From: a virus
Strand: one strand, 5' to 3'
IMG/VR virus record: IMGVR_UViG_3300042945_003255
Location: 1-31,680 of that record
DNA length: 31,680 nt
The position numbers and the translations under genes were made by a program. The notes beneath the pieces are model-generated. The model ran no database searches. It was not told the DNA's origin and was given only the letters and a program-made list of their open reading frames with translations. Positions within the stretch are counted from its first letter, which is position 1; every line of letters starts with the position of its first letter. Positions 804 to 17,763 of the stretch are shown piece after piece.

Positions 804-1517
804 ATGAACATTGTAATTCCAATGGCTGGGGAAGGAACTAGATTTCCCAGAGACACTTATAAAATTCCAAAACCATTAATTGAAATTAATGGGGTTCCAA
901 TGATTAAAATGGCAACAGAATCTTTGGGATTGAATGGAACTTATCACTTTGTGATAAGAAAGGATAGTTATTATGATCAGGTATGTACACTGCTTCATTC
1001 TATTTTTCCAACGTCTAAGATTATTAGTGTAGAGGAAACAACGGAAGGACCTGCATCGAGTTGTTTACTGTTTCGTGATTATATTAATAATGAAGATGAA
1101 TTGGTTGTTGCAAATTGTGATCAAATTATGTGGTGGGATTCTAATTTATTTCTCACTTCTGCAAGATACTATAAGTATGATGGTTTAGTTGTAACGTATA
1201 GTACTAATACTCCAAAAAACAGTTATGCTAGAATTGATAAAAAAGGTTTTGTTCAGGAAATAAAAGAAAAAGAAGTTATAAGTGATATTTCTTTAAATGG
1301 AATTCATTATTGGAGAAAGGGAAAGTATTTTGTACAAAGTGCAGAAAATATGATAAAATGCAATGATAGGGCTCCTAATGGAGAATTTTATGTTGGTCCA
1401 ACTTATAATCATATGATTAAACAAGGTCTCAAAGTTGGCATTCATCATATTCCGAATTGGCAACATAATCCAGTTGGCGTTCCAGAAGATTTAGAAACTT
1501 TTATTTCAAAATTATGA
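804..1517 (+). CDS. Sugar-phosphate nucleotidyltransferase
   Basis: A 237-residue protein starting MNIVIPMAGEGTRF, the nucleotide-binding signature (GxGxRF) of the NTP_transferase family, followed at about residues 22-27 by KPLIEI, the usual second conserved block. Family members join a sugar-1-phosphate to NTP, giving an NDP-sugar and pyrophosphate. The length is that of a catalytic domain alone, without the C-terminal left-handed beta-helix seen in GlmU-type enzymes. The Asp in VANCDQIMWW (about residues 103-111) matches the metal-binding Asp of the fold. The gene starts 3 bases after the previous stop and overlaps the cupin gene by 4 bases (ATGA), so the products probably act in one pathway. 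Which sugar and nucleotide are used cannot be read from sequence. Confidence 0.85.
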   Translation: MNIVIPMAGEGTRFPRDTYKIPKPLIEINGVPMIKMATESLGLNGTYHFVIRKDSYYDQVCTLLHSIFPTSKIISVEETTEGPASSCLLFRDYINNEDELVVANCDQIMWWDSNLFLTSARYYKYDGLVVTYSTNTPKNSYARIDKKGFVQEIKEKEVISDISLNGIHYWRKGKYFVQSAENMIKCNDRAPNGEFYVGPTYNHMIKQGLKVGIHHIPNWQHNPVGVPEDLETFISKL

Positions 1518-1834
1518 ATTTAAGTAATTTAAAGGACTATCATAGAGGGTGGATTATTGGTGATTTTGATCCATCTATCTTAAGAACGAAAGATTTTGAA
1601 GTTGGTGTTTTGTTTCATCCTAAGGGTGAAGTGTGGGCAGCACATTATCATAAAGATAGTGTAGAATATAATGTTCTTCTTTCTGGAAAAATGATGATTC
1701 AAGAAAAGGAGTTAAATAGTGGAGATGTATTTGTATTTGATAAGGGAGAAGTTGCAGATCCTATCTTTCTTGAAGACTGTACAGTAGTATGTGTAAAAGT
1801 TCCCTCCATTCCATCAGATAAATTTGAGGTTTAA
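1514..1834 (+). CDS. Small cupin-domain protein
   Basis: A 106-residue single-domain cupin. The first cupin motif is seen at about residues 37-60 (HYHKDSVEYNVLLSGKMMI): two histidines, then a glutamate and the 'l.G.m' turn. The second is reduced, with G-D-V-F-V-F around residues 70-75 and no obvious second histidine. Small cupins in glycan clusters are usually sugar epimerases or isomerases, or bind metal and sugar without catalysis. The start overlaps the nucleotidyltransferase stop by ATGA. The stop lies just before the RuBisCO-like gene, and the last codons of this gene contain that gene's ribosome binding site. Translation of the three genes is therefore probably coupled. The substrate is unknown. 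Confidence 0.75.
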   Translation: MNLSNLKDYHRGWIIGDFDPSILRTKDFEVGVLFHPKGEVWAAHYHKDSVEYNVLLSGKMMIQEKELNSGDVFVFDKGEVADPIFLEDCTVVCVKVPSIPSDKFEV

Positions 1835-1835: not shown

Positions 1836-3074
1836 ATGAAGTTTTTTAGAGAATTAACCGAACAAGAAAAAAATCGTTGTGTGATTGCAACGTATTATAT
1901 TGAAGCACATCAACAAGTTGGAGATTTGAGAGATGCTGCCTGGAACCTTGCGATTGGGCAGAGTGTAGGCAATCCAAAGGTTCGTAATCGTTGGGAAAGC
2001 GATGAACTTTTTGAGCTTTCTTCATGTGTAATTTACGATACCGAAGAAAATCTTACGGGTGTCTATTCTGGGAAAGTTAAAATTGGTTTTCCGAAAGTAA
2101 ACACTGATTGGGAAGGTGATGGAATTTCACATCTTCTTTGTCAACTTATGGGAGGACAATTGGATATTGATGTTTTTAAAGCATGTAGACTTCAGAAGTT
2201 AGAGTTTCCTGCAGATGTTGAAGCATCTTTTCTTGGACCAAAGAATGGTATTGACGGTATTCGTAAGTTTGTCAATCGTTATGATAAACCACTTTCTGGT
2301 GCGATTGTAAAACCGAAGACTGGAATTTCTCCACAAACTCTTTCCGAAATGGTGAAAGAACTTCTTGATGGTGGTGTAGACTTTATCAAAGAAGATGAGA
2401 TTCTTTCTAACCCTTCATTCTGCCGTCTTGAAGATCGTGTAGAACTGATTTCTAATATTGTTAATAATTGTGGAAGGAATGTGATTTATGCCTTCTGCAT
2501 TAATGGTGATCACCATACTATTCTTGATCGTGCTAAATTTGTTGCAGACAATGGGGGCAATGGGATTCATATTAACTTCTGGTCTGGTCTTGGAGTTTAT
2601 AACTCTGTTAGAAAAATGGATTTACCTTTGTTTATTCACTATCAAAAGAGTGGTGATAAGATTCTGACTGATAAGAGACATGCATTTGGTATTGATTGGG
2701 ATGTTCTCTGCGATCTTGCAGGTCTTTGTGGTGTGGATACAATTCATGCTGGAATGTGGGGTGGATACTTGAGTGATGATGAGAATGAACTTCGCCAAAC
2801 TATGGAAACTCTTCACAGGCGTAATGTTCTTCCTGCATTGAGCTGTGGTATGCATCCTGGCATCGTAAACACTACGGCAGAGAAGTTTGGTACGGACTTC
2901 CTTGCTAACTGCGGAGGTGCCGTACACGGGCATCCAGGCGGCACTCTGGCGGGTGCTTTGGCAATGCGCCAAGCAATTGATAAGAATCCTGGACCAGAGT
3001 TTCGTGTTGCTATTGATAAGTGGGGTTATGAAACTGGTGGAGGTTCTTTACCCGAGTGGGTTTTAGATTTTTGA
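1836..3074 (+). CDS. RuBisCO-like protein (form IV type)
   Basis: A 412-residue protein with both RuBisCO large-subunit domains. I start it at ATG 1836, with GAGG at 1826-1829 as ribosome site; an in-frame TTG at 1824 is possible but less likely. The N-terminal domain ends near residue 145 and the TIM barrel follows. Aligned by eye to spinach numbering, K159 and K161 match K175 and K177 (IVKPKTG). K185, D187 and E188 match the carbamylated K201 and metal ligands D203 and E204 (DFIKEDE). H268 matches H294, H304 matches H327, and S336 and G338 match S379 and G381. The loop-6 lysine K334 is replaced by Y311, R295 by Y269, H298 by S272, and the N-terminal Thr-Trp pair is missing. The enolase/metal site is thus kept while carboxylation residues are lost, as in form IV proteins. 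Characterised relatives are MtnW-type enolases, methylthioribulose-phosphate isomerases and oxo-isoapionate decarboxylases. Its place in a glycan cassette suggests ketose-phosphate chemistry, which is inference. G+C is visibly higher than in the flanking genes, most of all at the 3' end. Confidence 0.9.
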   Translation: MKFFRELTEQEKNRCVIATYYIEAHQQVGDLRDAAWNLAIGQSVGNPKVRNRWESDELFELSSCVIYDTEENLTGVYSGKVKIGFPKVNTDWEGDGISHLLCQLMGGQLDIDVFKACRLQKLEFPADVEASFLGPKNGIDGIRKFVNRYDKPLSGAIVKPKTGISPQTLSEMVKELLDGGVDFIKEDEILSNPSFCRLEDRVELISNIVNNCGRNVIYAFCINGDHHTILDRAKFVADNGGNGIHINFWSGLGVYNSVRKMDLPLFIHYQKSGDKILTDKRHAFGIDWDVLCDLAGLCGVDTIHAGMWGGYLSDDENELRQTMETLHRRNVLPALSCGMHPGIVNTTAEKFGTDFLANCGGAVHGHPGGTLAGALAMRQAIDKNPGPEFRVAIDKWGYETGGGSLPEWVLDF

Positions 3075-3089: not shown

Positions 3090-4655
3090 ATGTATGATTT
3101 TTGTGTTAACACTTTAGATTTATTTGCGAATAAAATTCGTGAGGTTTATGGAAATACAGATCCAGAAATTATCTTAGAGATAGGATCTCGTGATTTAAAT
3201 TCTAGTATAGAAATTTTAAGTCATTTTCCAAATTCAAGAATAATTGCTTTTGAACCGACCCCAGAACAATATAATATGTGTTTTGAAAAATCTAAACACT
3301 ATGAAAATATAGAAGTTTATAATTTCGCATTGTCCGACGAGGAAGGTGAGGTTGATTTTTGGGTTGTTGATGGAAATGTCGGTGGTTCTTCAATGTTTGA
3401 ACCTATTGATGTTCCTTATAGTTCTGGAACCTGGAATAAGATAAAAGTTCAATCAAAAAGATTAGATAGTTTTTTGAAATCAATTGGTGTTGAAAAGGTT
3501 GATTGTATCTGGATGGATACTCAAGGGGCAGAATTAAAAGTTCTTAAAGGTATGGGAACTTATTTGGATTCTGTTAAAGTTATTCATACTGAAGCATGTC
3601 CAAAACCATACTATAAAGGACAAGCAGTGAAAAGTGATTTGGAAAATTATTTAATCGGAAATAATTTTAGATTGGATCAGTTTATACCTGCTCCCAATCA
3701 CCCATATGAAGAAGGTGATTGGATTTGTGTTAGAACTAAAGAAACTCAAAGAATATCTTTAATTTGTGCATGTAAAAATAGATATAATGCTCTTAGAATT
3801 GCATTAAATTCTTGGTTGGCATTTGATCAAATACATGAAATTATAATTGTTGATTGGGATTCTGATAAATCTATTTCTCATCTTTCTAAATTGGACGATA
3901 GAATTAAAATTATTGAAGTAAAAAATAAGCAATACTTTAATCAACCACAACCTTTAAATCTTGCTGCAAGTATTGCCACTGGAAATTATATTTTAAAAGT
4001 AGATTGTGATTACATTATCAATCCATATTATAATTTCTTTGATGCTTATCCAGTTGATAATCAAAGTTTTGTTTCTGGAAAAAGCAATTATCAAGCTCCA
4101 GAATATTATTCCGAATCTTACGGTGGATATGTAATTGATATGCACCAAATGAAACCAGAAGAAATTGTTGATTACACTGTTTCCTATAGTCCATATTTTA
4201 AATTCTTAATAGGTCTTTTATTAATCAGTAAAGAAAACTTTTTCAAATGTGGTGGGTATAATGAAAATTTATCTAAGTGTTATGCATTTGAAGATGAAGA
4301 GTTCTATGAAAGGTTAAAATTGATGGGTCTTAAAGAGACTAGATTGAGACACGATTATCACACTATTCATCTTCCACATCCTGATAAAAAAAGAACAGAA
4401 CATTTTGAAGGATTTTCTTGGGAATCTGATTTTATAAAAATGGTTCAAGAAAATATGAGAAATCAAGGACATACTGAACAAGAAGTTCAATGGCAAGTTG
4501 AATATGCTTTGGCACAGAAACATATTGATCAAAATAAAGAAATGGTCGGTGAAATTACTGAGTATTATGTTGAACCAAAATCTAAGTGGAGAGTTTATGA
4601 AATGTGTAAAAATGTCTACAACGCTATAGAAGTTTTAGCATTGAATAATTCATGA
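3090..4655 (+). CDS. FkbM-family methyltransferase fused to GT-A glycosyltransferase
   Basis: A 521-residue two-domain protein. Residues about 25-215 form an FkbM-type SAM-dependent methyltransferase: the SAM loop reads ILEIGSRD (28-35), the acidic end of strand 2 is AFEPTPEQ (53-60), and the family signature is WMDTQGAELKVLKG (141-154). From about residue 221 a GT-A glycosyltransferase begins (ISLICACKNR, 222-231), with the DxD metal motif DCD at 305-307 and a galactosyltransferase-like C-terminal block with acidic residues (AFEDEEF). FkbM domains O-methylate sugars, so one polypeptide could transfer a sugar and methylate it or its neighbour. GGAGA just after the RuBisCO-like stop serves as ribosome site. 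The 3' end overlaps the next gene by ATGA. Confidence 0.85.
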   Translation: MYDFCVNTLDLFANKIREVYGNTDPEIILEIGSRDLNSSIEILSHFPNSRIIAFEPTPEQYNMCFEKSKHYENIEVYNFALSDEEGEVDFWVVDGNVGGSSMFEPIDVPYSSGTWNKIKVQSKRLDSFLKSIGVEKVDCIWMDTQGAELKVLKGMGTYLDSVKVIHTEACPKPYYKGQAVKSDLENYLIGNNFRLDQFIPAPNHPYEEGDWICVRTKETQRISLICACKNRYNALRIALNSWLAFDQIHEIIIVDWDSDKSISHLSKLDDRIKIIEVKNKQYFNQPQPLNLAASIATGNYILKVDCDYIINPYYNFFDAYPVDNQSFVSGKSNYQAPEYYSESYGGYVIDMHQMKPEEIVDYTVSYSPYFKFLIGLLLISKENFFKCGGYNENLSKCYAFEDEEFYERLKLMGLKETRLRHDYHTIHLPHPDKKRTEHFEGFSWESDFIKMVQENMRNQGHTEQEVQWQVEYALAQKHIDQNKEMVGEITEYYVEPKSKWRVYEMCKNVYNAIEVLALNNS

Positions 4656-5458
4656 ACTATTCTGATTTTACATTAGTTGTTCAAGGTCCAACTAATGATC
4701 TTACTAAAATAGATTTTTTGGATTCTATTGATTACTATCAATCTTTATTCTCTAAAATAGTACTATCAACTTACGACGAGCATATTTGCACAAATCAAAA
4801 ACTTTTAAAAATATGCGAAGAAAAAAGTATTCAAATAGTTACTCAAAGTGTAACTAATGGAATAAACAATTTATCATTCAAAGATTTTGATGAGAATCAT
4901 GAAATAGATAATGACTGTGGAATCAAATTTCAAACTGTCAGTACGTTAAATGGGTTGAACAATGTTTCTACTCCTTATGTTTTAAAACATAGAGTGGATG
5001 AAAGATATTCGAATTTACACTTGATTCTAGATAAGTTTTTATTGGATACCGAAAAACTGGTAACTGGTGGAACGTTTTTTGGACAAAAAGTTTATTTTGA
5101 ATATTGTGCGGCAGATCATTTAATGGTGTCTAAAACTAATAAAATGATAAAGACATTTGAAAAAACTCTAGAAATGATAAATTCTGGTATATTAGATAGT
5201 GGGCCAGAAATAATGTACACTAAAAATTTTATTAGAATATCTGGAGAAGATCCTACAAGTGAAAATCATGACATGCTTATGAGAAAGTATATTGATTTTT
5301 TACCAGACAAATATATGGAACCATTTGTTATACGTGCAAATCATTGGAATCAGATTTGGACGACTGCAGATTCACTTGGATACAGAAGAAATGAATATGA
5401 AACTATAGATGATATGATAAACAGTGAAATTGTAGTTTTAAATCAATTTTATAACTAA
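4652..5458 (+). CDS. WavE-like lipopolysaccharide synthesis protein (first copy)
   Basis: A 268-residue protein with the pattern of the WavE family (named after a Vibrio cholerae LPS-core gene): an N-terminal VVQGP at residues 9-13 after a beta strand, a central 'QTVSTLNGL..VSTPYVLKHRVDERY' pattern (described here in pieces) near residues 93-120, and a C-terminal HWNQIW. The segment KHRVDERY resembles the KxRxD..Y motif thought to be part of the donor site. It starts inside the stop region of the previous gene (ATGA) and ends one base before the next start. A diverged relative lies at 7321-8121, so the cassette carries two members. It probably acts as a glycosyltransferase on host-derived or phage-specified glycans; the acceptor is unknown. 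Confidence 0.7.
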   Translation: MNYSDFTLVVQGPTNDLTKIDFLDSIDYYQSLFSKIVLSTYDEHICTNQKLLKICEEKSIQIVTQSVTNGINNLSFKDFDENHEIDNDCGIKFQTVSTLNGLNNVSTPYVLKHRVDERYSNLHLILDKFLLDTEKLVTGGTFFGQKVYFEYCAADHLMVSKTNKMIKTFEKTLEMINSGILDSGPEIMYTKNFIRISGEDPTSENHDMLMRKYIDFLPDKYMEPFVIRANHWNQIWTTADSLGYRRNEYETIDDMINSEIVVLNQFYN

Positions 5459-5459: not shown

Positions 5460-5939
5460 ATGAAAATTATATCTCATCGTGGTAATTTGAATTCTATAAA
5501 TCCAGTAGAAGAAAATAAACCAGAATATATTGAGAATGCAATTCTAGAGGGATTTGATGTTGAAGTTGATTTAAGAGTGGAAGATAATCAATGCTATCTT
5601 GGTCACGATAATCCTCAATATTTTGTAACTATGGAGTGGTTAAGAAAATATAAGGATGTTCTTTGGATTCATTGCAAAAATCGTGAAGCACTTGAAAAAA
5701 TGTCAAGTTCTGTGGTAAAATTTAACTACTTCTGGCATCAAAACGATAGTTATACGCTAACAAGTAGTGGAATTGGGTGGGTTCTTGTAGGACAAATTCC
5801 ATATTCAAATTCAGTAATTGTATTACCAGAGAATGTTAAATTGTATTCTCAACATCCAGAATACATAAAAAATAGTTTTGGTATATGCACAGACAAACCA
5901 ATTTTTTATAGAGATAAAATTAATGGAGGTAATCAATGA
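5460..5939 (+). CDS. Short glycerophosphodiester phosphodiesterase-like protein
   Basis: A 159-residue protein with the N-terminal half of the GDPD TIM-barrel signature: HRG at residues 6-8, a glutamate-aspartate pair in VEVDLR (E35 and D37) and a histidine in LGHD (H49). These match the two catalytic histidines and the metal-binding acidic residues of glycerophosphodiester phosphodiesterases. At 159 residues it is far shorter than the usual 240-350, so it is either a reduced barrel or a specialised variant of the kind found in polysaccharide clusters. Possible roles are removal of glycerophosphate from a glycan, or handling of a phosphodiester-linked sugar. It lies between a WavE-like gene and a GT25 gene and overlaps the latter by ATGA. 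Confidence 0.65.
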   Translation: MKIISHRGNLNSINPVEENKPEYIENAILEGFDVEVDLRVEDNQCYLGHDNPQYFVTMEWLRKYKDVLWIHCKNREALEKMSSSVVKFNYFWHQNDSYTLTSSGIGWVLVGQIPYSNSVIVLPENVKLYSQHPEYIKNSFGICTDKPIFYRDKINGGNQ

Positions 5940-7321
5940 ATAGTTCGTTAATGATGGCAAGTTATCCCGACCAAAAACAAAAATTGAATAATTTTCCAAA
6001 AGTTTATTATATTAGTTTGGAAGAAAGTGAAGATAGGAGGGAAAACCTGAGAAAAAGTTTTTTAAAATATGGAGTTTATGATTTACAAGGAGTAATTTCT
6101 AAAAGATATTCAGAATCATCCGATCAAGTTTCTGGACCACAATTGCATATTCTTGATGGGGGAACTATTGGATGTGTAGTTTCTCATATTAAAATGATTA
6201 AAAAATGGTATGAGGAAACTGATGACGAATATGCATTCTTTTGTGAGGATGATCTTAGTCTAGAAACTGTTTCTAATTGGAATTTTACTTGGAATGATTT
6301 TGTAAATAATCTTCCCGAAGATTGGGATTGTGTACAATTATGTTGCATTAAACCATCGCACGATTCTATTGTTCTTAAAGAACGATCCATGTATGATTGG
6401 TCGGTGACCGCATACATTATGAAGCGCAATTATGCTAAAAAAATTATAGATCGTTACTGTTTTGGTGATAAGTTTAATCTTGAAATTTACGGAACAGATT
6501 TTTATCCTATGCCGGAAACTGTTCTTTTTTATGATATTGGAAAAGTTTACGCTGTAGATTTATTTGTCGAAGAGGTAAAGTTCCAATCAACTTTTACTGA
6601 AACTGCAAATATTGAAGGTGGTACTAAAGACCATCATGCAGAGAGTCAGGAATTTGTTTCTTCTTGGTGGGAAAAGAACGGACAAAATATTACGATTGAG
6701 GAACTTGTGGGAACTGAACAACCAAAACCAAAAAGAGAAAAAACTGAATTAGAGGATCTTTTGACTAAGTTTTCTCTTGATACTGAAAATGCAATTCATA
6801 ATTTTAATCTTGGCGTTTGGTACGAAAACGGTGGGCATACTGCACCAGCTCTTTCTTATTACTTAAGAGCAGCAGAAAGATCTGAAGATGATAATCTTAC
6901 CTATGAGGCACTTATTAGAGGATCTTATTGTTATGATAAACAGGGAACTAGAGACAATAGTTCTAAGTCCCTTTTAACACAAGCACTTTGTTCTGTACCA
7001 TCTAGACCAGAGGCATATTTCCTTTTGAGTAGATTTGCTGAAAGAAGAAGTCAGTGGATGGAAGCATATACTTTTGCTTGTCAAGGTTTAGAATATTCAA
7101 CATTTGATCACCCAGATCTTATTACTGATGTTGAGTATCCTGGTAAATACGGTCTAATTTATCAAAAAGCACTTTCTGGATGGTGGTGGGGTAAGTCTGA
7201 AGAATGTAAAGAATTATTCCAAGATCTTATGACAAATTATGAAATGAATGATTATTATCTAGAAAGATCTAAGGAGAATATTGCAAGTTTTAATCTTGAA
7301 ATCGTAGAAAAAAAGAATTGA
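5936..7321 (+). CDS. GT25-family glycosyltransferase with C-terminal TPR-like repeats
   Basis: A 461-residue protein. Residues about 20-210 match glycosyltransferase family 25 (LPS-type galactosyltransferases): YYISLEESEDRRENL (24-38), GCVVSHIKMI (79-88) and FFCEDDLS (101-108), whose EDD is the family's metal-binding acidic motif. After a charged linker near 260-272, residues about 279-440 are helical with a TPR-like pattern (NFNLGVWYENGG, then two or three A-rich helix pairs with regularly spaced aromatics), a likely scaffold for partners or a glycan chain. GGAGG at 5924-5928 is a good ribosome site and overlaps the end of the GDPD-like gene. Confidence 0.75.
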   Translation: MNSSLMMASYPDQKQKLNNFPKVYYISLEESEDRRENLRKSFLKYGVYDLQGVISKRYSESSDQVSGPQLHILDGGTIGCVVSHIKMIKKWYEETDDEYAFFCEDDLSLETVSNWNFTWNDFVNNLPEDWDCVQLCCIKPSHDSIVLKERSMYDWSVTAYIMKRNYAKKIIDRYCFGDKFNLEIYGTDFYPMPETVLFYDIGKVYAVDLFVEEVKFQSTFTETANIEGGTKDHHAESQEFVSSWWEKNGQNITIEELVGTEQPKPKREKTELEDLLTKFSLDTENAIHNFNLGVWYENGGHTAPALSYYLRAAERSEDDNLTYEALIRGSYCYDKQGTRDNSSKSLLTQALCSVPSRPEAYFLLSRFAERRSQWMEAYTFACQGLEYSTFDHPDLITDVEYPGKYGLIYQKALSGWWWGKSEECKELFQDLMTNYEMNDYYLERSKENIASFNLEIVEKKN

Positions 7322-8121
7322 TGCAGAATAATAACTTTGAAAAAATTGATATTGTTCTGCAAGGGCGATACGATGAATTTACTAATGAAGTCATAGATTC
7401 TTATTTTGAATTGCCATTCGTAAACAACATTATTCTTTCTTGTTGGGAGGATGATGTTGTTACCTACATTCCGAATTCAAGATTCTTTGTTATTTCAAAT
7501 AAGTTTCCGATTACACCAGGAACAGATAATAGAAATCTGCAAATTGTGACTTCTTTTGCTGGTTTGCAAAAAGTTACAACTGAATACGCAATTAAAATGA
7601 GAACTGATCAAAAATACACTCATCAAAGTATGATGAACATGTATCAGTTCTTTATAGAGCACAGGAATGAAGACCGAATTTTTGTTCCTGGAATGTATCC
7701 ACACCTTTTATTCCACCCAAGAGATCATGTTTTTTGGGGTAAAACCGAACACTTAATTAAAATGTTTGATATTCCCCTTGAAATAAATGGACTTGTTGAC
7801 AAAGTGAGAATAAGTAAGTATGATCTATGGAAATATTATGGACACTTTATAAGAACTGAAACTTATATTGGAGCACATTATTGTTCTAATTATGATGATA
7901 GGATTAAACTGTTTTTACTTTATCCTAACGAATATCTTTATGATTATGCTCCTAAATGGCAAGAAGTTTATGAAATTAGTCAAAATTTGAATAAAAAAAT
8001 ATTTAAATCATTTCCAAAAACTGATATTGATTTAATGTGGCCCAAAAAACAATTAAATTTTTATCCATATGAAGATCAAAAAAATGGATACAATGAATGT
8101 TGGCATGAAGATGGGTATTAA
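7321..8121 (+). CDS. WavE-like lipopolysaccharide synthesis protein (second copy)
   Basis: A 266-residue protein from ATG 7321, directly after the previous coding frame; an in-frame TTG at 7318 is the alternative. It has the WavE pattern: IVLQGR at residues 11-16, NLQIVTSFAGLQKV near 70-83, and KMRTDQKY near 91-98. This parallels the copy at 4652-5458 block by block, although overall identity is low, so the two are probably anciently diverged paralogues with different specificities. It is the last gene of the glycan cassette. A late-promoter-like motif and the glutaredoxin gene follow it. Confidence 0.65.
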   Translation: MQNNNFEKIDIVLQGRYDEFTNEVIDSYFELPFVNNIILSCWEDDVVTYIPNSRFFVISNKFPITPGTDNRNLQIVTSFAGLQKVTTEYAIKMRTDQKYTHQSMMNMYQFFIEHRNEDRIFVPGMYPHLLFHPRDHVFWGKTEHLIKMFDIPLEINGLVDKVRISKYDLWKYYGHFIRTETYIGAHYCSNYDDRIKLFLLYPNEYLYDYAPKWQEVYEISQNLNKKIFKSFPKTDIDLMWPKKQLNFYPYEDQKNGYNECWHEDGY

Positions 8122-10538: not shown

Positions 10539-10702
10539 GTAGTAGAGCAAGAGAATTAGTAAAGTTGTTGGAAAGGTTGGTCAAACAAGATCATCTCTAT
10601 TCCGATGAGCAACTAAAAGAAATGAAATCACAATTGCGAGTAATAAAACAAGAACTTGCAGATATTGAAGCACAAACATCAAAAGGATTTGGAAAAAAAT
10701 GA
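10535..10702 (+). CDS. Small coiled-coil-like protein (55 aa)
   Basis: ATG 10535 overlaps the preceding stop, and its own stop TGA at 10700-10702 overlaps the thyX start. The 55 residues are almost entirely helical with heptad-like spacing of Leu and Ile (LVKLLERLVK, then LRVIKQELADIEAQ), so a short coiled coil is likely. The tail is glycine- and lysine-rich (SKGFGKK). No family or function is recognised. Precise coupling on both sides supports it being real. Confidence 0.6.
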   Translation: MSSRARELVKLLERLVKQDHLYSDEQLKEMKSQLRVIKQELADIEAQTSKGFGKK

Positions 10703-11334
10703 CGGTAAAACTTATTTCAGTAACGCCCGATGCAGAAAAAACAATGGCGTATGTTGCACGAGTTAGCAATCCTGCGAATCAAGACAACGAAAACTATGCC
10801 AAGTTGCTTGCTTATTGCATTAAGCATAATCATTGGTCTGTTTTTGAACAGTCTTTTATGACTCTTGAGATTGAAACGAATCGTGGTATCGCAGCTCAGA
10901 TTTTGCGTCACCGTTCGTTTACATATCAAGAATTTTCACAACGTTATGCAGATTCTTCTCTGCTAGGCGAAACAATTCCTGTTCCAGAACTTCGCCGCCA
11001 AGACACAAAGAATCGCCAAAACTCTATTGATGATGTTGATCCTTCTGTAGTTGAAAAATATGAATATTTGATTCGTGAGCATTTTAGAGATGCTATGGCA
11101 CTGTATCAAACAATGCTGGATGAGGGAATTGCAAAGGAATGTGCAAGGTTCGTGCTTCCTTTGGCAACACCGACAAAAATTTATATGTCTGGCTCATGCA
11201 GGTCGTGGATTCATTATATCAATCTTCGCTCTGCAAATGGCACTCAAAAAGAGCATATGGATATTGCACTTGCATGTAAGGAAATTTTCAAAGAGCAGTT
11301 CCCATCAGTATCAGAAGCACTTGAATGGGTCTAA
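10699..11334 (+). CDS. thyX: FAD-dependent thymidylate synthase
   Basis: A 211-residue ThyX, which makes dTMP from dUMP using methylene-tetrahydrofolate and FAD/NADPH. The signature motif is at residues 70-83 (RHRSFTYQEFSQRY), matching RHRxxSxNExSxRY with Gln for the usual Asn. NRGIAAQIL precedes it, and a second block near 152-175 (AKECARFVLPL and SCRSWIHYINLR) holds the conserved Arg and His residues that contact dUMP. ThyX is common in T4-like cyanophages, where it substitutes for T4 td and supports phage DNA synthesis. Its start overlaps the upstream coiled-coil gene by ATGA, so it is probably read from the promoter at 10326. Confidence 0.95.
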   Translation: MTVKLISVTPDAEKTMAYVARVSNPANQDNENYAKLLAYCIKHNHWSVFEQSFMTLEIETNRGIAAQILRHRSFTYQEFSQRYADSSLLGETIPVPELRRQDTKNRQNSIDDVDPSVVEKYEYLIREHFRDAMALYQTMLDEGIAKECARFVLPLATPTKIYMSGSCRSWIHYINLRSANGTQKEHMDIALACKEIFKEQFPSVSEALEWV

Positions 11335-11337
11335 ATA
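11331..11337 (+). promoter_or_regulatory. Late-promoter-like motif CTAAATA
   Basis: CTAAATA overlaps the thyX stop codon, 23 bases upstream of the next start. It is an exact match to the late motif described for cyanomyoviruses. No early-type promoter is seen in the gap. Confidence 0.45.
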
Positions 11338-11360
11338 AATTATCTTGATTTCGTAACTTT

Positions 11361-11603
11361 ATGGCAATTTATCCAGTTATTCACGTAGAAACAGGTGAAA
11401 AAAAAGTTGTTGAAATGAGTGTCAACGACATTATGCAATGGTATAAAGACAATCCTGAATGGAAACGGGATTGGTCTGAAGGATGCGCAACTCCAGGAGA
11501 AGTTGGAGATTGGCAGAACAAATTGATTAGTAAAAACCCAGGGTGGAACGACGTTCTAGGACGTGCTGCGAAAATGCCTGGATCTAACGTAAAGAAAATC
11601 TAG
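11361..11603 (+). CDS. Conserved cyanophage protein (80 aa)
   Basis: An 80-residue protein starting MAIYPVIHVETGEKK, with a Trp-rich middle (MQWYKDNPEWKRDW), one CATPGEVGDW segment and a C-terminal GWNDVLGRAAKMPGS. The N-terminal strand pair resembles FmdB-type small regulators, but the zinc-binding cysteine pairs are missing (only one Cys), so I do not call it FmdB. It sits between thyX and phoH, one base before the phoH start, as in other cyanomyoviruses from memory. The function is unknown. Confidence 0.7.
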   Translation: MAIYPVIHVETGEKKVVEMSVNDIMQWYKDNPEWKRDWSEGCATPGEVGDWQNKLISKNPGWNDVLGRAAKMPGSNVKKI

Positions 11604-11604
11604 T

Positions 11605-12363
11605 ATGGCAAGAAGAAAGAGAGGATCTGCAGAGCAACCTATTGGGGTTGGACTCACAGCAAAGCAGATGAAGCGTAGAAAACCCTTAAGTTCTGAATAT
11701 CTTTTAGATATTGAACCAGTTACAGATAATCAGAAAAAGTTTTTTGATGCCTATGCTGAAGGGAAACATTTAGTTGCTTATGGATGTGCTGGAACTGGTA
11801 AAACTTTTATTACTCTCTACAATGCTTTATGTGATGTTTTAGATGAAAATAGTCCTTATGAAAGAATCTATCTAGTTCGCTCTCTTGTTGCGACACGTGA
11901 AATTGGATTCCTTCCAGGAACACATGATGACAAGGCGGATATTTACCAAATTCCTTATAAGAATATGGTGAAATATATGTTCCAGATGCCTACAGATGCT
12001 GATTTTGAAATGCTTTATGGTAATCTAAAGGGGCAAGAAACTATTAAGTTTTGGAGTACATCATTCCTTCGGGGAACAACATTAGATAATGCAATTGTGA
12101 TTGTTGATGAGTTTCAGAATTTAACTTTCCATGAATTGGACAGTATAATTACACGCATAGGTGAAAATTCTAAGATTATGTTCTGTGGAGACGCGACTCA
12201 GTCTGATCTTCAAAAAACAAATGATCGTAATGGAATTATTGATTTCATAAAAATCTTAAGATCCATGCCATCAATTGATTTAATTGAGTTTGGGGTAAAT
12301 GATATTGTTCGCTCTGGTCTTGTTAAAGAATACATTGTTGCAAAAATTGAATCAGGATTTTAA
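11605..12363 (+). CDS. phoH: PhoH-family P-loop ATPase
   Basis: A 252-residue PhoH-like protein. It has Walker A GCAGTGKT at residues 60-67, Walker B IVIVDEFQN at about 164-172 (D168 and E169 catalytic) and a sensor-like segment MFCGDATQSDLQ near 192-203. Residues 1-35 are basic and may be a nucleic-acid contact. PhoH proteins are RNA/DNA-linked ATPases. In cyanobacteria phoH belongs to the phosphate regulon and it is a near-universal cyanophage accessory gene, though its role in infection is not settled. The gene overlaps the following nuclease gene by one base. Confidence 0.93.
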   Translation: MARRKRGSAEQPIGVGLTAKQMKRRKPLSSEYLLDIEPVTDNQKKFFDAYAEGKHLVAYGCAGTGKTFITLYNALCDVLDENSPYERIYLVRSLVATREIGFLPGTHDDKADIYQIPYKNMVKYMFQMPTDADFEMLYGNLKGQETIKFWSTSFLRGTTLDNAIVIVDEFQNLTFHELDSIITRIGENSKIMFCGDATQSDLQKTNDRNGIIDFIKILRSMPSIDLIEFGVNDIVRSGLVKEYIVAKIESGF

Positions 12364-13043
12364 TGTTTAAACATGTTGATATTGAACTCCCTAAACTTGA
12401 AAGGGAGACCATAGATGGAGTTAGGTACTATAAGGTTCCTGATGGTGAAGATCTTATTAAACTATTTTCAATCACTTCAGTAACTAGTCATAAAAATCGC
12501 CAAGTATTTGTTAAATGGCGTAAAAAAGTAGGTGATGAAGAAGCAGATAGAATTACACGACAATCAACAAGTCGTGGAACTGATATGCACACTCTTACTG
12601 AACATCACCTTAAAAATGAAGAACTTCCAGAAGTTCAACCTTTGTCGCAATTTTTATTTAAAATTGCTAAACCAGATTTAAATCGTATAAATAACATTTA
12701 TACTCTTGAAGGTTCCCTGTACAGCAAAGTTCTTGGAGTAGCGGGAACAGTAGATTGTATTGCAGAGTTTGATGGCGAATTAGCAATAATCGACTTTAAA
12801 ACATCTAAAAAACCAAAACCACGGGAGTGGATTGAGCATTATTTTGTTCAGTGTGCTGCTTATGCCTGTATGTTCTATGAACTGACTGGTATTCCCGTCA
12901 AAAAACTTGTAATTATCATGGCTTGCGAAAATGGAGAATGTATCGTTTATGAAGAAAGAGACAAATCAAAGTACATCAAACTACTCACCGAATACATTAG
13001 AGAGTTTGTTAGAGATAAACTGGAATTGTATGGAACACAATAA
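12363..13043 (+). CDS. PD-(D/E)XK exonuclease (RecB/Cas4-like)
   Basis: A 226-residue nuclease-like protein with the RecB-family series of motifs. RGTDMHTLTE is at residues 71-80 (GxxxH and the acidic motif), a Glu occurs at about 116, GTVDCIAEF is at 128-136 (D131), IIDFKTSKK is at 142-150 (catalytic D144 and K146), and QCAAYACMFYEL (about 161-172) is the QxxxY helix. Together these predict a Mg-dependent DNA exonuclease acting on ends or single strands. Cyanomyoviruses carry such a protein beside phoH and gp33 from memory. It starts on the last base of the phoH stop and overlaps gp33 by 14 bases. Confidence 0.85.
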   Translation: MFKHVDIELPKLERETIDGVRYYKVPDGEDLIKLFSITSVTSHKNRQVFVKWRKKVGDEEADRITRQSTSRGTDMHTLTEHHLKNEELPEVQPLSQFLFKIAKPDLNRINNIYTLEGSLYSKVLGVAGTVDCIAEFDGELAIIDFKTSKKPKPREWIEHYFVQCAAYACMFYELTGIPVKKLVIIMACENGECIVYEERDKSKYIKLLTEYIREFVRDKLELYGTQ

Positions 13044-13290
13044 AGAATTAGAACAAGCTATAGAAAATAAATTTTTAACTCCATCTAAATTTTCATTAGA
13101 AATCGAAAAGATAGTGGTATCTGAAAATATGAACTACATTGATGCTATTTGTCATTATTGTGAAGTTAATAGTATTGATGTAGAATCTGTATCAAAACTG
13201 GTTTCAAAACCGTTAAAAGAAAGATTAAAATGGGACGCAACTCGTCTCAATTTTATGAAAAAAACTTCTAGAGCAAAACTGCCCCTATGA
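13030..13290 (+). CDS. gp33: Late promoter transcription coactivator gp33
   Basis: An 86-residue protein from ATG 13030, inside the end of the nuclease gene; longer upstream starts in the same frame run through that gene and give no sensible N-terminus. The sequence matches the cyanophage gp33-like pattern: LTPSKFSLEIEKIV (residues 15-28), MNYIDAICHYCE (33-44), an alternating VES-VSKLV helix, and a basic end (KKTSRAKLPL). In T4, gp33 bridges the sliding clamp and the RNA polymerase flap to drive late transcription. Its presence fits the CTAAATA-type late motifs in this window. The stop overlaps the gp59 start by 4 bases. Confidence 0.85.
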   Translation: MEHNKELEQAIENKFLTPSKFSLEIEKIVVSENMNYIDAICHYCEVNSIDVESVSKLVSKPLKERLKWDATRLNFMKKTSRAKLPL

Positions 13291-13883
13291 TCGTGACCCC
13301 CTTTGAAACTTATCAACATTATTTGTCACTTAAAAATCATTTCACAAATCCAAAATACGACTTCTTTAGATATGGTGGTAAATCACGTGCCAGTGTAACT
13401 TCTTTTAATAAACGAAAAGATAAGTACTGGTTTGAAAAAACCTCACGTAAGTATTCTGATAAAGAAGTCGTAGATTTTCTTGTATCAAACTTTGTATCCG
13501 CAGACAACCCACAAAACTTATGGATTGGAGAAATTATCAATTCTGGAGAAAGGACCTACGCAGATTGGATGCGGAGACAACAGAGTTTAACTTACTTGTT
13601 CAAAGAACAATCGGAGGAATTGTTCTCGGAGATAAAATTAGACGATGCGCTGAATTGTTCCAAGGGGCATCCACCAGTCCTCAAAAGGTTCTTAAGCGGG
13701 AAATTATCGCTAGAAACATTCGTAATTTACGACAAAATATTCCGTTTCTCAACCGATTTTGATAAGAAATTGCTCGATCCAGTGTGGGAAACCGTAAGTT
13801 TAAAACTTAAAAAGTATAGTCCATTCCTAAATATTGATGTGTTCCAATATAAAAAGAAATTAAGGGAAATCTTAAATGAGTGA
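13287..13883 (+). CDS. gp59: DNA helicase loader gp59
   Basis: A 198-residue protein, close to the 217 residues of T4 gp59. Shared features include the N-terminal YQHYLSLKNHF (T4 YKLYLMIKQHM), KYDFFRY, the KRRDKY-like block seen here as KRKDKYWFEKTSRKYSD, LVSNFVSADNPQNLWIGEI, and the C-terminal VWETVSLKLKKY. gp59 binds forked DNA and gp32 and loads the gp41 helicase during recombination-dependent replication. It lies between gp33 and a DUF1825-type gene, a short distance upstream of gp32, its expected partner. It overlaps both neighbours (4 and 8 bases). Confidence 0.88.
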   Translation: MIVTPFETYQHYLSLKNHFTNPKYDFFRYGGKSRASVTSFNKRKDKYWFEKTSRKYSDKEVVDFLVSNFVSADNPQNLWIGEIINSGERTYADWMRRQQSLTYLFKEQSEELFSEIKLDDALNCSKGHPPVLKRFLSGKLSLETFVIYDKIFRFSTDFDKKLLDPVWETVSLKLKKYSPFLNIDVFQYKKKLREILNE

Positions 13884-14214
13884 CTTTTTTGATTCTGAAA
13901 TTATTCAGGAAGAATTGAGAGAAATTAATAAACTACAAGAAGACATTTACGGAAGTATTCTTACTTTCGGTATGATGTCAAATGAAGATAAGTTGGAACA
14001 TATTGAAAAGTTGAGCAACTTATTAGATAAACAACGTATCATGTATACACGTTTATCTCTGTCTGATGATCCAGCGGCAGTTGAAATGAAAGAGAATTTG
14101 CGCAAATCTGTGTCTTTGATGGGATTCCCACCAGACACAGATATGCAGGTGTTATTTACTAGTATGACAAAAACGATTGAGTCTCTTAAAAAGTTTATCA
14201 ATCCTACCCCTTGA
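13876..14214 (+). CDS. DUF1825-type protein
   Basis: A 112-residue helical protein starting MSDFFDSEIIQEE, the opening seen in DUF1825 proteins of cyanobacteria (FFDSEIVQEE-type). A helix with IEKLSNLLDKQRIMYTRL (about residues 43-60), LSLSDDPAAVEM and a final GFPPDTDMQVLF helix follow. DUF1825 is found mainly in cyanobacteria and their phages; the function is unknown. It could be a host-derived gene or an old shared family. It ends 70 bases before gp32, and the gp32 promoter overlaps its last codons. Confidence 0.8.
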   Translation: MSDFFDSEIIQEELREINKLQEDIYGSILTFGMMSNEDKLEHIEKLSNLLDKQRIMYTRLSLSDDPAAVEMKENLRKSVSLMGFPPDTDMQVLFTSMTKTIESLKKFINPTP

Positions 14215-14239
14215 CTTCCCTGCTCTTCCTTGCTATACT
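14211..14239 (+). promoter_or_regulatory. Sigma70-type promoter of gp32
   Basis: TTGACT (14211-14216), a 17-base spacer and TATACT (14234-14239), starting at the stop codon of the preceding gene. Initiation near 14246 gives a leader of about 37 bases with GAGG at 14271-14274 before ATG 14283. This is the strongest consensus promoter in the window and fits a protein needed in large amounts early. Confidence 0.85.
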
Positions 14240-14282
14240 ATCCAAGTAATCCTCCAAATCCAAACTATCCGAGGTAATCCTA

Positions 14283-15209
14283 ATGTCTTTTGCTGATCTT
14301 AAAAAGCAATCTAAACTTGGTTCTCTGACCGCCAAACTGGTCAAAGAAGTTGAAAAAATGAATACTAGTAGCGGTTCTAGTGATGACCGCGTCTGGAAAC
14401 TGGATGTAGACAAAAGCGGCAACGGTTATGCCGTAATCCGTTTCCTTCCTGCCCCCAACGGCGAAGACCTTCCGTTTGTGAAACTCTACAGTCACGCATT
14501 CCAAGGTCCTGGTGGTTGGTATATCGAAAACTCTCTCACCACTCTGGGACAAAAAGATCCTGTATCCGAACTCAATTCCACTCTTTGGAACAACGGTACT
14601 GATGCTGGCAAAGAACTCGCCCGTAAGCAGAAGCGTAAACTGACTTACATCAGCAACATTTACGTGGTGAAGGATCCTGCAAATCCCGAAAACGAAGGTA
14701 AAGTTTTCCTCTTCAAATACGGTAAGAAAATCTTCGACAAACTTACCGAAGCGATGCAACCCGAATTTGAAGATGAGGAAGCAATTGATCCGTTTGACTT
14801 CTGGCAGGGTGCAAACTTTAAACTGAAGGCAAAGAACGTTGCTGGTTATCGTAACTATGACTCTAGCGAGTTTGCCAACCCTTCTCCTCTACTGGACGAT
14901 GATGATGCTCTGGAAGGAATCTGGAAAAAGCAATATTCTCTTGCAGAACTTGTTGCAGCAGATCAATTCAAATCTTATGATGATCTGAAAAAGCGCCTTG
15001 ACTACGTTATCGGAACTAAAGGCACTCCTCGTTATCAAGATCCTGAAGAGTTTGATGAAGAAGACAACTCGCGTGGTTCTACAAAAGAACTTGATGACGA
15101 TCTTCGTTCTGAACTGAACAATCTTCAACCTACCCGCCGTGCTGTGGCACCTGTGGAAGATGATGATGACGATGCTCTTTCTTACTTTGCTCGTTTGGCA
15201 GAAGACTGA
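14283..15209 (+). CDS. gp32: Single-stranded DNA-binding protein gp32
   Basis: A 308-residue gp32 homologue (T4: 301). The order of parts is conserved: a basic N-terminal cooperativity segment (FADLKKQSKLGSLTAKL), an OB-fold core from about residue 37 (VWKLDVDKSGNGYAVIRFLP), KQKRKLTYISNIYVVKDP and GKVFLFKYGKKIFDK, and a very acidic C-terminal tail (VEDDDDDALSYFARLAED) that recruits partners such as gp59. It has no cysteine at all, so the T4 zinc site (one His, three Cys) is absent. Codon use is richer in G and C than in neighbouring phage genes, as expected for a highly expressed gene. Its own promoter precedes it and a strong terminator follows. Confidence 0.95.
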   Translation: MSFADLKKQSKLGSLTAKLVKEVEKMNTSSGSSDDRVWKLDVDKSGNGYAVIRFLPAPNGEDLPFVKLYSHAFQGPGGWYIENSLTTLGQKDPVSELNSTLWNNGTDAGKELARKQKRKLTYISNIYVVKDPANPENEGKVFLFKYGKKIFDKLTEAMQPEFEDEEAIDPFDFWQGANFKLKAKNVAGYRNYDSSEFANPSPLLDDDDALEGIWKKQYSLAELVAADQFKSYDDLKKRLDYVIGTKGTPRYQDPEEFDEEDNSRGSTKELDDDLRSELNNLQPTRRAVAPVEDDDDDALSYFARLAED

Positions 15210-15219
15210 TTAGCATCTG

Positions 15220-15247
15220 GGGAAGGTTTTAAACCTTCCCTTTTTTT
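15220..15247 (+). terminator. Rho-independent terminator of gp32
   Basis: Stem GGGAAGGTTT (15220-15229) with AAACCTTCCC (15231-15240) and seven T (15241-15247). It lies between gp32 and the convergent gp53 gene, whose stop codon (15246-15248, minus strand) touches the T-tract. There is no matching T-tract for minus-strand transcripts, so it acts in one direction only. Confidence 0.9.
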
Positions 15248-15947
15248 ATGGAGAGGTAATTCTTAAGTTTTCCCCTTGTATCAAGTAATCATTGACGTAT
15301 TGTGAAGATTTTTTATATTTCATAATCGTTCTAGTATCGTTTAGGAATTCTTGGAGATATCCTCTTTTAAGAACATAAATTTGTCTTTTAGCATCATTTT
15401 TTTCAATTTCATATTCATAATTTGTAACTGGTTTTGTTATATTAAATACGGTTACATATGTTTGACTTTGGCTGTCATAATATCTTACATAAGACTGTAA
15501 TGGTTGATTATCTGTAGTTGGTTTAGGTAGTTTATAATTTTTTTCTACTATTTTTCCTTCTGGAATAATTATTCTTCCTTTAGAATCTTTTACTTCTTTA
15601 GTTACATAATATCTTGGCGAGTCTATTTCCGTTCCATAAAGTCTTTCCACGTAATTTACAAGATCTTTATTTGATAAAGGCCATTGATCTCTTACATTAA
15701 CTATTCCTGCAGATATTAATACAACCCAATCTAATTCTGGAGAACCATAAAGTTCTTGAGCAACTTGATCTGGACGAATATTTTCTTGTATGGTATATTT
15801 GTTAAATGCAGTAAATACGCTTTCAAAATCTTGCCTTACTCTAATTCTTTTGAAAAGATTTTTGGCTTCGACATAATCTAAAGAAGAACCTCTATCTGGA
15901 AGAGGAGAAATATATTTTAAGTTTGGAAGTTCTCTGAAATAACCCAT
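15246..15947 (-). CDS. gp53: Baseplate wedge protein gp53
   Basis: A 233-residue protein. The N-terminal half matches the gp53 wedge pattern: FNKYTIQENIRPDQVAQELYG (given in two parts, about residues 48-57 and 58-68) followed by LDWVVLISAGIVN, in which DW and the small-residue turn are conserved in T4 gp53. In T4, gp53 joins neighbouring wedges and completes the dome around the hub. It is the last gene of a four-gene leftward unit that encodes tail and head completion proteins, and it ends against the gp32 terminator from the opposite strand. One base separates it from gp48. Confidence 0.8.
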   Translation of the reverse strand: MGYFRELPNLKYISPLPDRGSSLDYVEAKNLFKRIRVRQDFESVFTAFNKYTIQENIRPDQVAQELYGSPELDWVVLISAGIVNVRDQWPLSNKDLVNYVERLYGTEIDSPRYYVTKEVKDSKGRIIIPEGKIVEKNYKLPKPTTDNQPLQSYVRYYDSQSQTYVTVFNITKPVTNYEYEIEKNDAKRQIYVLKRGYLQEFLNDTRTIMKYKKSSQYVNDYLIQGENLRITSP

Positions 15948-15948
15948 T

Positions 15949-16872
15949 TTAGTAACCTACTGATCCATCTGTTTCTAAAATTTGACCGCCTTGTTCTACA
16001 TTGTAGTCTTCTTCATATACTGGAACAAGTTCTTTGAATGTTAAATCCATAATTATAGAAACTGGAGTACTATCACTATAAACTGCATAAACATTATCTC
16101 CAGTATAGTTTACTGACATATCGGATAATGCACATGGTTTGAATCTATGTAAAAAAGGATGAGATCCGCCACCTCTCCTATATTCTAATTGAAATACGTG
16201 AGGTGCTATAAGAAATGCGCCATCACTTTTTGGGGCCATGTTTCTTTTAAATGAACGAATAATTTTTTTAACTTGTGTTGATTCGTTCTGATTTCTCGGA
16301 GTCATTTTAAAAGAAAATCTAAAGCTTCTTAAAGTAACTCCATTAAAAAGGAGTTCCATATTTGGGTTTAAACTTTTACCTTCAGAACGTGCTAATATTT
16401 GATTTACTGTGACATTTCCACCAAAAACAGAAACTGCTTGTGATGCTAACGCTTTGAGCATTATTTCTTTGATTCCAGCATCTTGTAAATTTTTTATTGC
16501 ATCTACGCTTGTATCCGCAATATTTCCTAATACTTTAGCAACTCCTCCCGGTTTACTAAAATCCTGCATCATCATCTTTTGGGCACTTTCTACTCCAATG
16601 GCACTAAAAGCATCTAAACTACCCTCTTCATATGATACAGAATTACTATCTTGAATATTTGACGGCATGGGAAGTAAAATTATTCCCCCATCATTTACTA
16701 AAGTTTGTTTGTATAAATTTGCCGAAGATGTAGTGCTCACATCAGCAGCATTAGTTGGCACTGCTGATGGTGTGGTCAGCATATCTCCCGCTTCGTAATT
16801 TTTTATAGTTATCTGAAGATAATCTGTAGATTTTGTTATGGCTTCGTATGGGTAACGTAAAACTTCTGCCAT
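15949..16872 (-). CDS. gp48: Baseplate tail-tube cap protein gp48
   Basis: A 307-residue protein resembling T4 gp48 (364 aa). The most telling part is the C-terminal tube-like domain from about residue 170: NPNMELLFNGVTLRSFRFSF, a PRN...E block, VKKIIRSFKRNMAPK, and the later FLHRFKPCALSDMSVNYTG and SIIMDLTFKELV. gp48 and gp54 form the platform on which gp19 tube rings polymerise. The N-terminal 160 residues are Ala/Thr/Ser-rich and less conserved. It lies in the leftward operon between gp53 and a conserved unknown. Confidence 0.8.
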   Translation of the reverse strand: MAEVLRYPYEAITKSTDYLQITIKNYEAGDMLTTPSAVPTNAADVSTTSSANLYKQTLVNDGGIILLPMPSNIQDSNSVSYEEGSLDAFSAIGVESAQKMMMQDFSKPGGVAKVLGNIADTSVDAIKNLQDAGIKEIMLKALASQAVSVFGGNVTVNQILARSEGKSLNPNMELLFNGVTLRSFRFSFKMTPRNQNESTQVKKIIRSFKRNMAPKSDGAFLIAPHVFQLEYRRGGGSHPFLHRFKPCALSDMSVNYTGDNVYAVYSDSTPVSIIMDLTFKELVPVYEEDYNVEQGGQILETDGSVGY

Positions 16873-16881
16873 TATCGTTTT

Positions 16882-17286
16882 CTAATTATTTAGACGAAAT
16901 TTTCCAAATGGAATGGTTTGTAAATCTTTTAGTTCTGATGGATACACTTCATAAATTCCACCAGGAATTTCATCCCAGGTATACTGTCTAACTTCTCCCC
17001 AGTGAAAATTGATCCCTCTAAATCCCCAAGGAAAAACATCAGTAACTGCCACTAAAGGATTTTGGTCATATTGAATGTTTGGTGTTTTTGGATTGTATAC
17101 AAAAACATAATATTTTCCAGTTTTTGGAACTTTTTCACTTTCTGTTAGTGCAGTTATAATTTCCAGCATCAAATCATCTGGATCTTCGGTTCCAATTAAA
17201 TTATTAGTTATGTCACGAAGACGATTAACTTTATCATCAGTATCTGTATTTGTTTTTTTCCTTTGCTTTATAGATTTTCTTGGCAT
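16882..17286 (-). CDS. Conserved cyanophage structural-cluster protein (134 aa)
   Basis: A 134-residue protein. The first 20 residues are basic (MPRKSIKQRKK), then come an acidic helical region and a beta-rich body, GKYYVFVYNPKTPNIQYDQ, with aromatic-rich FPWGFRGINFHWGEVRQY. I recognise no named family. It is located between gp4 and gp48 with 1- and 9-base gaps, so it is co-expressed with head completion and baseplate proteins and is probably a virion or assembly component. This is inference from position only. Confidence 0.65.
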   Translation of the reverse strand: MPRKSIKQRKKTNTDTDDKVNRLRDITNNLIGTEDPDDLMLEIITALTESEKVPKTGKYYVFVYNPKTPNIQYDQNPLVAVTDVFPWGFRGINFHWGEVRQYTWDEIPGGIYEVYPSELKDLQTIPFGKFRLNN

Positions 17287-17287
17287 T

Positions 17288-17722
17288 TTAGATATCTAAT
17301 TCCTTTTCGGTAATAACTTTAAACTGCCACTGACGATCTTCGCAAAACTCTCTGGCAGCTTTCCATTTTGCTTGATTTTTTGCATACTCGTATGCTTCAT
17401 AAAGATATTGCTTGGTTTGACGTTTTGGTTTTTGTGGAGGTGATAGTTGTTTTAGTGGTTTGATTTCAATTAGATACTTTTTAATTTCTCCGTTTGATTC
17501 TTTTACCTTAATATAAAAATCTGGAAAATATCTATGAATTCTATTATCTACAGGAGACCGATAAGGTAATGCAATTTCTTCAGAACCCCATTCTAAAATT
17601 CTATTGTTATTATCACAATAGACCATAAACTTTCTTTCCCAAAGAGATCGGTATATAATGTTTGTAGGATCTCCTTTGTATTTTTGTGGATATGATGGTT
17701 TATATTTTCCTTTATATGACAT
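17288..17722 (-). CDS. gp4: Head completion protein gp4
   Basis: A 144-residue protein that follows the T4 gp4 (gp50) pattern: an MSYKGKY start, YRSLWERKFMVYCDNN, LEWGSEEIALPYRSPVDN, and HRYFPDFYIKV, a block like the acidic and lysine motif of TnsA-type PD-(D/E)XK nucleases (FPDF then IEIKP). gp4 with gp50 and gp65 is needed so that filled heads can join tails; the nuclease-like fold may process DNA ends. It is the first gene of the leftward unit, just after a divergent pair of late-promoter motifs. Confidence 0.85.
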   Translation of the reverse strand: MSYKGKYKPSYPQKYKGDPTNIIYRSLWERKFMVYCDNNNRILEWGSEEIALPYRSPVDNRIHRYFPDFYIKVKESNGEIKKYLIEIKPLKQLSPPQKPKRQTKQYLYEAYEYAKNQAKWKAAREFCEDRQWQFKVITEKELDI

Positions 17723-17729: not shown

Positions 17730-17754
17730 TTTCATAACATAGAATTGCTGTAAA

Positions 17755-17761: not shown

Positions 17762-17763
17762 AA

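Follow-up and report, generated by a model that had tools for sequence, protein, structure and literature searches.

Known members of the RuBisCO superfamily serve in carbon fixation, in nucleotide or sugar-acid catabolism, or in sulfur salvage, and known RuBisCO carboxylation needs the loop-6 lysine K334. The described enzymes closest to the protein reported here are form III RuBisCO (Pyrococcus horikoshii 2d69/2cwx, Thermococcus 3a12), the DK-MTP-1-P enolase MtnW (Bacillus 2zvi, Geobacillus 2oem), and the form IV-NonPhoto RuBisCO-like proteins (RLPs) with OiaX (3nwr; Agrobacterium OiaX), whose known members are catabolic. Our protein is encoded by a viral DNA of 31,680 nucleotides (IMG/VR record IMGVR_UViG_3300042945_003255, the whole of which we call the window). 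The open reading frame lies on the forward strand at 1836..3074, from the ATG at 1836 to a stop codon that ends at 3074, and specifies 412 aa. A Shine-Dalgarno GAGG at 1826-1829 lies 5' of this ATG, and the preceding cupin gene ends at 1834; an in-frame TTG at 1824 is a possible, less likely start.

The initial annotation had recognised both RuBisCO large-subunit domains in this frame, and Pfam, NCBIfam and a structural model bear this out. RuBisCO_large (PF00016) matches the protein with an E of 2.7e-43, and rubisco_III comes out best in NCBIfam, over residues 17-386 (E 2.5e-60, 204 bits, cut-off 497). We modelled the protein with AlphaFold2 from a 42-sequence alignment (mean pLDDT 93.6, pTM 0.91). 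Since residues 1-394 of the model align to Pyrococcus form III 2d69 (Z 43.1, 2.4 Å, 381 residues), both domains are present, and the two-domain fold with its catalytic barrel places the protein in the RuBisCO superfamily. The match to Bacillus MtnW is about equal (Z 42.3). Against close viral relatives, in the pairs for which dS could be estimated, dN/dS of the gene is about 0.04-0.07, a sign of purifying selection.

Despite the shared fold, the window protein is only 28% identical to form III, falls in a separate clade and, unlike form III, is encoded beside a sugar nucleotidyltransferase. Form III and the family described below have in common K175, K177, K201, D203, E204, S379, the Gly P1 loop and, mostly, H327. 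Relative to form III, the window protein carries Tyr for K334, Gln for H294, Lys for R295, Asp for H298, Asn-Pro for T65-W66 and Gly for N123.

Phylogenetic position and active-site residues

In a careful tree of 62 rows the window protein and its relatives form one clade (support 100/99). It had been proposed that the protein is RuBisCO-like and lies outside forms I-III, placement among these forms being named as one of the findings that would overturn the proposal. The tree agrees with the proposal: forms I-III split off without the family (100/98), and the window protein is not among them. In a quicker tree of 85 rows the family likewise makes up one side of a branch (SH-aLRT 100). We rejected a form III identity based on the best HMM match, as the protein scores under half of the cut-off and the tree puts it outside that form.

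The RLPs sampled in the careful tree were the MtnW, Photo and NonPhoto/OiaX clades, which are part of the published RLP clades only, and the window family belongs to none of them. The rows for MtnW, Photo, NonPhoto and two form III proteins were copied from PDB alignments; an approximate MtnW query served only to retrieve deposited sequences. MtnW is the nearest clade (95/91), but its branch is very long (2.15) and the grouping may for that reason be an artefact. Lying outside forms I-III and having at least one essential carboxylase residue replaced, the protein is form IV in the broad sense. Judged by its sequence, it appears to be a member of an undescribed RuBisCO-superfamily lineage that stands apart from the sampled RLP clades.

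We compared active-site residues in an alignment of 85 rows, made up of 42 family members and 43 sequences from forms I, II, III and II/III and from the MtnW, Photo, NonPhoto and OiaX groups. The carbamylatable lysine and metal ligands of active RuBisCO, K185, D187 and E188 (K201, D203 and E204), are invariant in all 42 members, as are both active-site lysines, K159 and K161 (K175 and K177), and S336, G338 and G360 (S379, G381 and G403). The loop-6 lysine is not kept: every member has Tyr311 at the K334 position, where all sampled forms I-III have Lys. N46-P47 replaces the T65-W66 pair and G107 stands at the N123 position, again in 42/42. Gln270 occupies the H294 position throughout the family, whereas all other sampled forms have His there; at the R295 position, 39 of the 42 have Lys271. 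Two histidines are less constant: H268, the equivalent of His292, is Phe in ten members and Met in one, and H304, the equivalent of H327, is replaced by Gln in seven.

These columns uphold most of the residue assignments first made from the window alone, namely K159/K161, K185, D187/E188, H304 and S336 as K175/K177, K201, D203/E204, H327 and S379, Tyr311 in place of K334, and the loss of the N-terminal Thr-Trp pair. Two assignments were wrong by two residues. H268 had been taken for H294 and Tyr269 for R295; we dropped both, as the gap-free alignment to form III in this region and the 85-row alignment contradict them. The description of the whole as a form IV pattern with an intact metal site is right about the metal site; the pattern differs in that K177, found in the family and in forms I-III, is absent from every other RLP sampled. 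From the aligned columns, then, the metal and enolisation core is intact and the carboxylase loop residue is gone, a combination unlike that of the sampled form IV clades. MtnW shares with the family the Mg site, K175 and a Gly at the position of E60, and is itself an enolising RLP, but it has neither K177 nor R295, and its residue 294 is still His; the family keeps K177 and has Gln at 294. The OiaX/NonPhoto proteins share the Mg site, a Gln after E60, Arg or Lys at 295 and, in part, S379; they keep K334 and H294 without K177, the opposite of the family.

A conserved cassette in viruses and cells

The RuBisCO-like gene of the window sits in a cluster of forward-strand genes which the initial annotation described as sugar-nucleotide and glycosyltransferase genes, and gene-by-gene annotation gives the same picture. 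Upstream, at 804..1517, lies a gene for a 237-aa protein (PF00483, E 2.9e-9, 37.3 bits against a cut-off of 21.2; phrog_3980) whose AlphaFold2 model (pLDDT 94.8) matches PDB 4evw (Z 29.7), GlmU (Z 26) and GalU/RmlA (Z 23-25). Fold and Pfam match both point to a sugar-1-phosphate-type nucleotidyltransferase, and this is the activity we predict, with GlmU/GalU/RmlA as the nearest fold models; identity to these enzymes is only 15-23% for folds that match at Z 23-30, and none of the NCBIfam equivalog models reached its cut-off. Between this gene and the RuBisCO-like gene, at 1514..1834, is a small cupin of 106 aa (phrog_24762) with an HxH...E metal-type motif 1 in the alignment; its match to PF07883 (E 1e-4) is under the curated cut-off.

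Downstream are an FkbM methyltransferase fused to a GT2-type glycosyltransferase (3090..4655; Pfam/NCBIfam), which is a variable neighbour, and an uncharacterised glycan-cluster protein without a Pfam or NCBIfam match (4652..5458). They are followed by a short GDPD-like protein of 159 aa (5460..5939), a GT25-family glycosyltransferase (5936..7321; PF01755, E 2.2e-8) and a WavE-type LPS-synthesis protein (7318..8121; PF07507, E 1.6e-12). The GDPD-like protein has no Pfam match of its own but keeps HR...ExD...GHD in the alignment, and its family profile aligns to a PF03009 GDPD in hhalign (probability 95.6, E 1.2e-8) over 49 columns, in the catalytic N-terminal part only.

One scan of IMG/VR yielded 225 confirmed relatives of the window protein, the best 80 of which are 55-100% identical to it. 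A family HMM separates them cleanly, with its own members at 318 bits or more and all other sequences at 201 or less. The family is not confined to viruses. Among 84,980 prokaryote genomes we recovered 32 loci, 23 of them in the new family; the other nine (L105-L113) are ordinary form III and II/III enzymes and were set aside. Cellular members occur in SAR11 and other Alphaproteobacteria, Azospirillum oleiclasticum, three Legionella species, Elusimicrobia, Verrucomicrobiia, Sphingobacteriales (Bacteroidota), Patescibacteria and nanoarchaeal lineages, the Elusimicrobia and Azospirillum RLPs being 41-44% identical to that of the window. None of the genomes scanned places a member in cyanobacteria. 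The distribution is patchy, and we dismissed a broad occurrence in SAR11, as only 2 of 297 Pelagibacterales genomes carry the gene.

The predicted nucleotidyltransferase accompanies the RuBisCO-like gene almost without exception. It lies beside it in 71 of the 72 viral loci with room for it, always upstream and on the same strand. A cupin is present in 65/78 viral loci with room, and the short GDPD-like protein within 5 kb in 50/53. All 21 cellular loci with room, including L097 with a fragment of the nucleotidyltransferase only and excluding L088 and L104 as too short, have the nucleotidyltransferase adjacent or within ~1 kb, although order and strand vary; they span Pseudomonadota, Elusimicrobiota, Bacteroidota, Verrucomicrobiota, Patescibacteria and Nanoarchaeota. 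In Elusimicrobia and Azospirillum the order is GDPD-like, RLP, cupin, nucleotidyltransferase. The three Legionella genomes have the RLP and nucleotidyltransferase side by side and no match to the cupin or the short GDPD-like protein anywhere, and a cassette of these two genes alone suggests a minimal two-step route. Phages, bacteria and archaea thus share a small cassette that unites the RuBisCO-like gene with one for a sugar nucleotidyltransferase. Around this core the gene content varies between loci, glycosyltransferases, methyltransferases and epimerases making up most of it.

Several loci depart from this arrangement in detail. Beside the RLP of SAR11 and of a nanoarchaeon there is an additional, divergent nucleotidyltransferase paralogue from which the usual glycine-rich/PKP signature is missing (L089 4930-5667; L093 13298-13918; L095 9219-9959); a reading of the extra SAR11 gene as HAD was rejected in favour of this paralogue. 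One viral subgroup (L025-L035) has a fixed five-gene block 3' of the RLP, which includes a 3-dehydroquinate-synthase-like protein and a weakly fructosamine-kinase-like one. The cultured Synechococcus phages Bellamy and SynMITS9220M01 have a HAD-nucleotidyltransferase adjoining a cupin in a glycan cluster, as in the cassette, but unlike the window phage they lack the RuBisCO-like gene. A HAD fusion is not a general part of the cassette and was rejected as such, being carried only by L077 and the cultured-phage relatives.

Candidate function and alternatives

Other RLPs enolise or isomerise phosphorylated ketose-type compounds (PMC6302742). On balance we favour a comparable role, in which the window protein would be a Mg-dependent enolising enzyme that feeds a sugar phosphate to nucleotide activation and glycan transfer. 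Given that the gene almost always adjoins a sugar-activating enzyme, a part in making an unusual surface sugar is probable, rather than CO2 fixation. In the proposed route K185, expected to be carbamylated, would form the Mg site with D187 and E188; the RLP would bind a phosphorylated ketose-type sugar, form a Mg-stabilised enediolate and release an isomerised or tautomerised sugar phosphate. From this product, perhaps once the cupin has acted on it, the nucleotidyltransferase would make an NDP-sugar, which glycosyltransferases encoded nearby would attach to a glycan on the surface of the infected host cell; in bacteria and archaea the glycan target would be the cell's own surface. In support of this model, the Mg site and K175/K177 are invariant while the loop-6 lysine (now Y311) and the Thr-Trp phosphate clamp are gone; further support comes from the near-obligatory nucleotidyltransferase, the frequent cupin and GDPD-like genes, and the variable glycosyltransferases around a constant core.

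Other observations count against the enolising model or complicate it. The P1 and P2 phosphate sites are both altered, and a simple route from isomerase to nucleotidyltransferase does not account for the GDPD-like protein. We infer strongly that RLP, nucleotidyltransferase and glycan belong to one pathway, yet gene neighbourhood speaks for a shared pathway and not for the order of its steps, and the RLP could act on a side branch. In R. rubrum a cupin acts downstream of an RLP (PMC6302742), a precedent that fits our model but proves nothing. Because H294, kept in the other sampled forms, is Gln here, the chemistry may differ from that of known RLPs. We tentatively suggest a reaction new to the superfamily, in which a protein with Gln for H294 and Tyr for K334 would act on a sugar phosphate and catalyse the committed step to a nucleotide-activated sugar. 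The initial annotation had raised the idea of a new subfamily used for an unusual sugar; the separate clade agrees with the first part, and the nucleotidyltransferase cassette strengthens the second, which keeps its conditional standing.

A catabolic auxiliary gene is unlikely. On this reading the infecting phage would use an OiaX-like decarboxylase or MtnW-like enolase to salvage sugar acids or methylthio-sugars of its host, and the glycan genes next to it would be incidental. The nearness of MtnW in the careful tree, and the fact that the OiaX and MtnW models can be aligned to the protein, fit this reading, but the scores are far under the cut-offs (OiaX 155 bits against 700; MtnW 167.5 against 409 for PRK09549 and 125.6 against 513.6 for TIGR03332), OiaX forms a separate clade and the MtnW grouping is open to the long-branch doubt noted above. 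Both groups lack K177 and differ in many active-site columns. The near-universal nucleotidyltransferase link also argues against salvage; the gene context of MtnW is different, and among the genes beside ours we recognised none for apiose or for methionine salvage.

A divergent carboxylase that adds CO2, making a branched or carboxylated sugar for the nucleotidyltransferase, seems to us decidedly improbable. It would explain why K175, K177, K201, D203, E204 and S379 are kept, K177 being otherwise common to forms I-III only, and form III is the best structural match, tied with MtnW. The position outside forms I-III speaks against it, as do Tyr at K334 in 42/42 members, Gln at H294 and the replacement of T65, W66 and N123. 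Very improbable, too, is a non-catalytic scaffold or regulator that only binds the nucleotidyltransferase: its constant partner and the two altered phosphate sites would suit such a role, but metal ligands and both active-site lysines that are invariant in 42/42 members, across viruses and several phyla, are unexpected in a dead enzyme.

In viruses, bacteria and archaea alike this deep lineage is linked to a sugar nucleotidyltransferase, which points to the fold being used in biosynthesis, probably of surface glycans. If so, the RuBisCO fold would here have its first biosynthetic, glycan-building role, with the window protein the first member of the superfamily shown to act in phages, and this would imply an unrecognised sugar by which phages may alter the surface of infected cyanobacteria. 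Natural variants that keep K177 while H294 and K334 are replaced also bear on the evolution of RuBisCO chemistry. As the Legionella two-gene form occurs in cultured strains, the substrate can be sought directly.

The phage carrier

The window had been attributed to a T4-like cyanophage, and both gene content and DNA identity agree. PHROGs matches at 10699..19364 identify a phage core of thymidylate synthase, PhoH, exonuclease, gp59 helicase loader, gp32, baseplate wedge, tail-tube cap, head closure, tail tube and baseplate hub, T4-type core genes like those of cultured cyanomyoviruses, and stretches of the contig are 75-78% identical in DNA to S-SKS1, S-SRM01 and P-SSM2. Six of 50 related viral records, 111 to 519 kb long, have the gene together with both a T4-like capsid gp23 and a terminase over the cut-off, and a seventh has the terminase alone; low-scoring terminase matches of ~255 aa we take to be PhoH. 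Since gp23 and terminase share contigs with the gene, it resides in real phages, one of them at least 518 kb. The core genes and these six contigs likewise answer the earlier concern that the flanking DNA might be cellular. It is hardly credible that errors of assembly or binning made cellular DNA pass for viral contigs and that the gene is bacterial: some IMG/VR matches near 65% identity do resemble SAR11 loci, and a 3.3-kb 'Crocinitomicaceae' contig has an RLP identical to a viral one, but the window links the gene to T4-like core genes, as do the six long contigs, and the arrangement is common to many contigs.

Some of the contigs near 65% identity may be SAR11 fragments. The Crocinitomicaceae MAG contig (L082, 3302 bases), whose RLP matches that of viral contig L044, probably derives from a phage and ended up in a bacterial MAG through binning. 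The initial annotation had also stated that the gene is not among known cyanophage metabolic genes, and tblastn of the window protein against 50,697 deposited INPHARED phage records indeed gave no match; the viral structures in BFVD include no RuBisCO match either. A search of open-licence PMC literature found no earlier description of a phage or glycan-linked RuBisCO-like protein. In the Lac Pavin paper, which deals with phages and RuBisCO, no report of phage RuBisCO was found (PMC9875498). A 2007 GOS paper lists 65 RuBisCO homologues outside known clades (PMC1821046), which may include the present family.

The longest of the gp23-bearing contigs (L057, 518,643 bases) has gp23, terminase and the full cassette of nucleotidyltransferase, cupin, RLP and GDPD-like genes. 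In the window the RuBisCO-like gene has a GC content of 40% (27% at GC3), compared with ~30% (~18%) in the flanking glycan genes, and in base composition it is closer to the phage's own thyX and gp32; this may be a mark of high expression or of an origin of its own. In the tail cluster, a single 816-aa chain (21887-24337) has both lysozyme-like and M23 metallo-endopeptidase matches; at 30227-31678, truncated by the contig end, a tail-fibre-like protein repeats collagen-like G-x-Q / G-T-Q-G triplets dozens of times.
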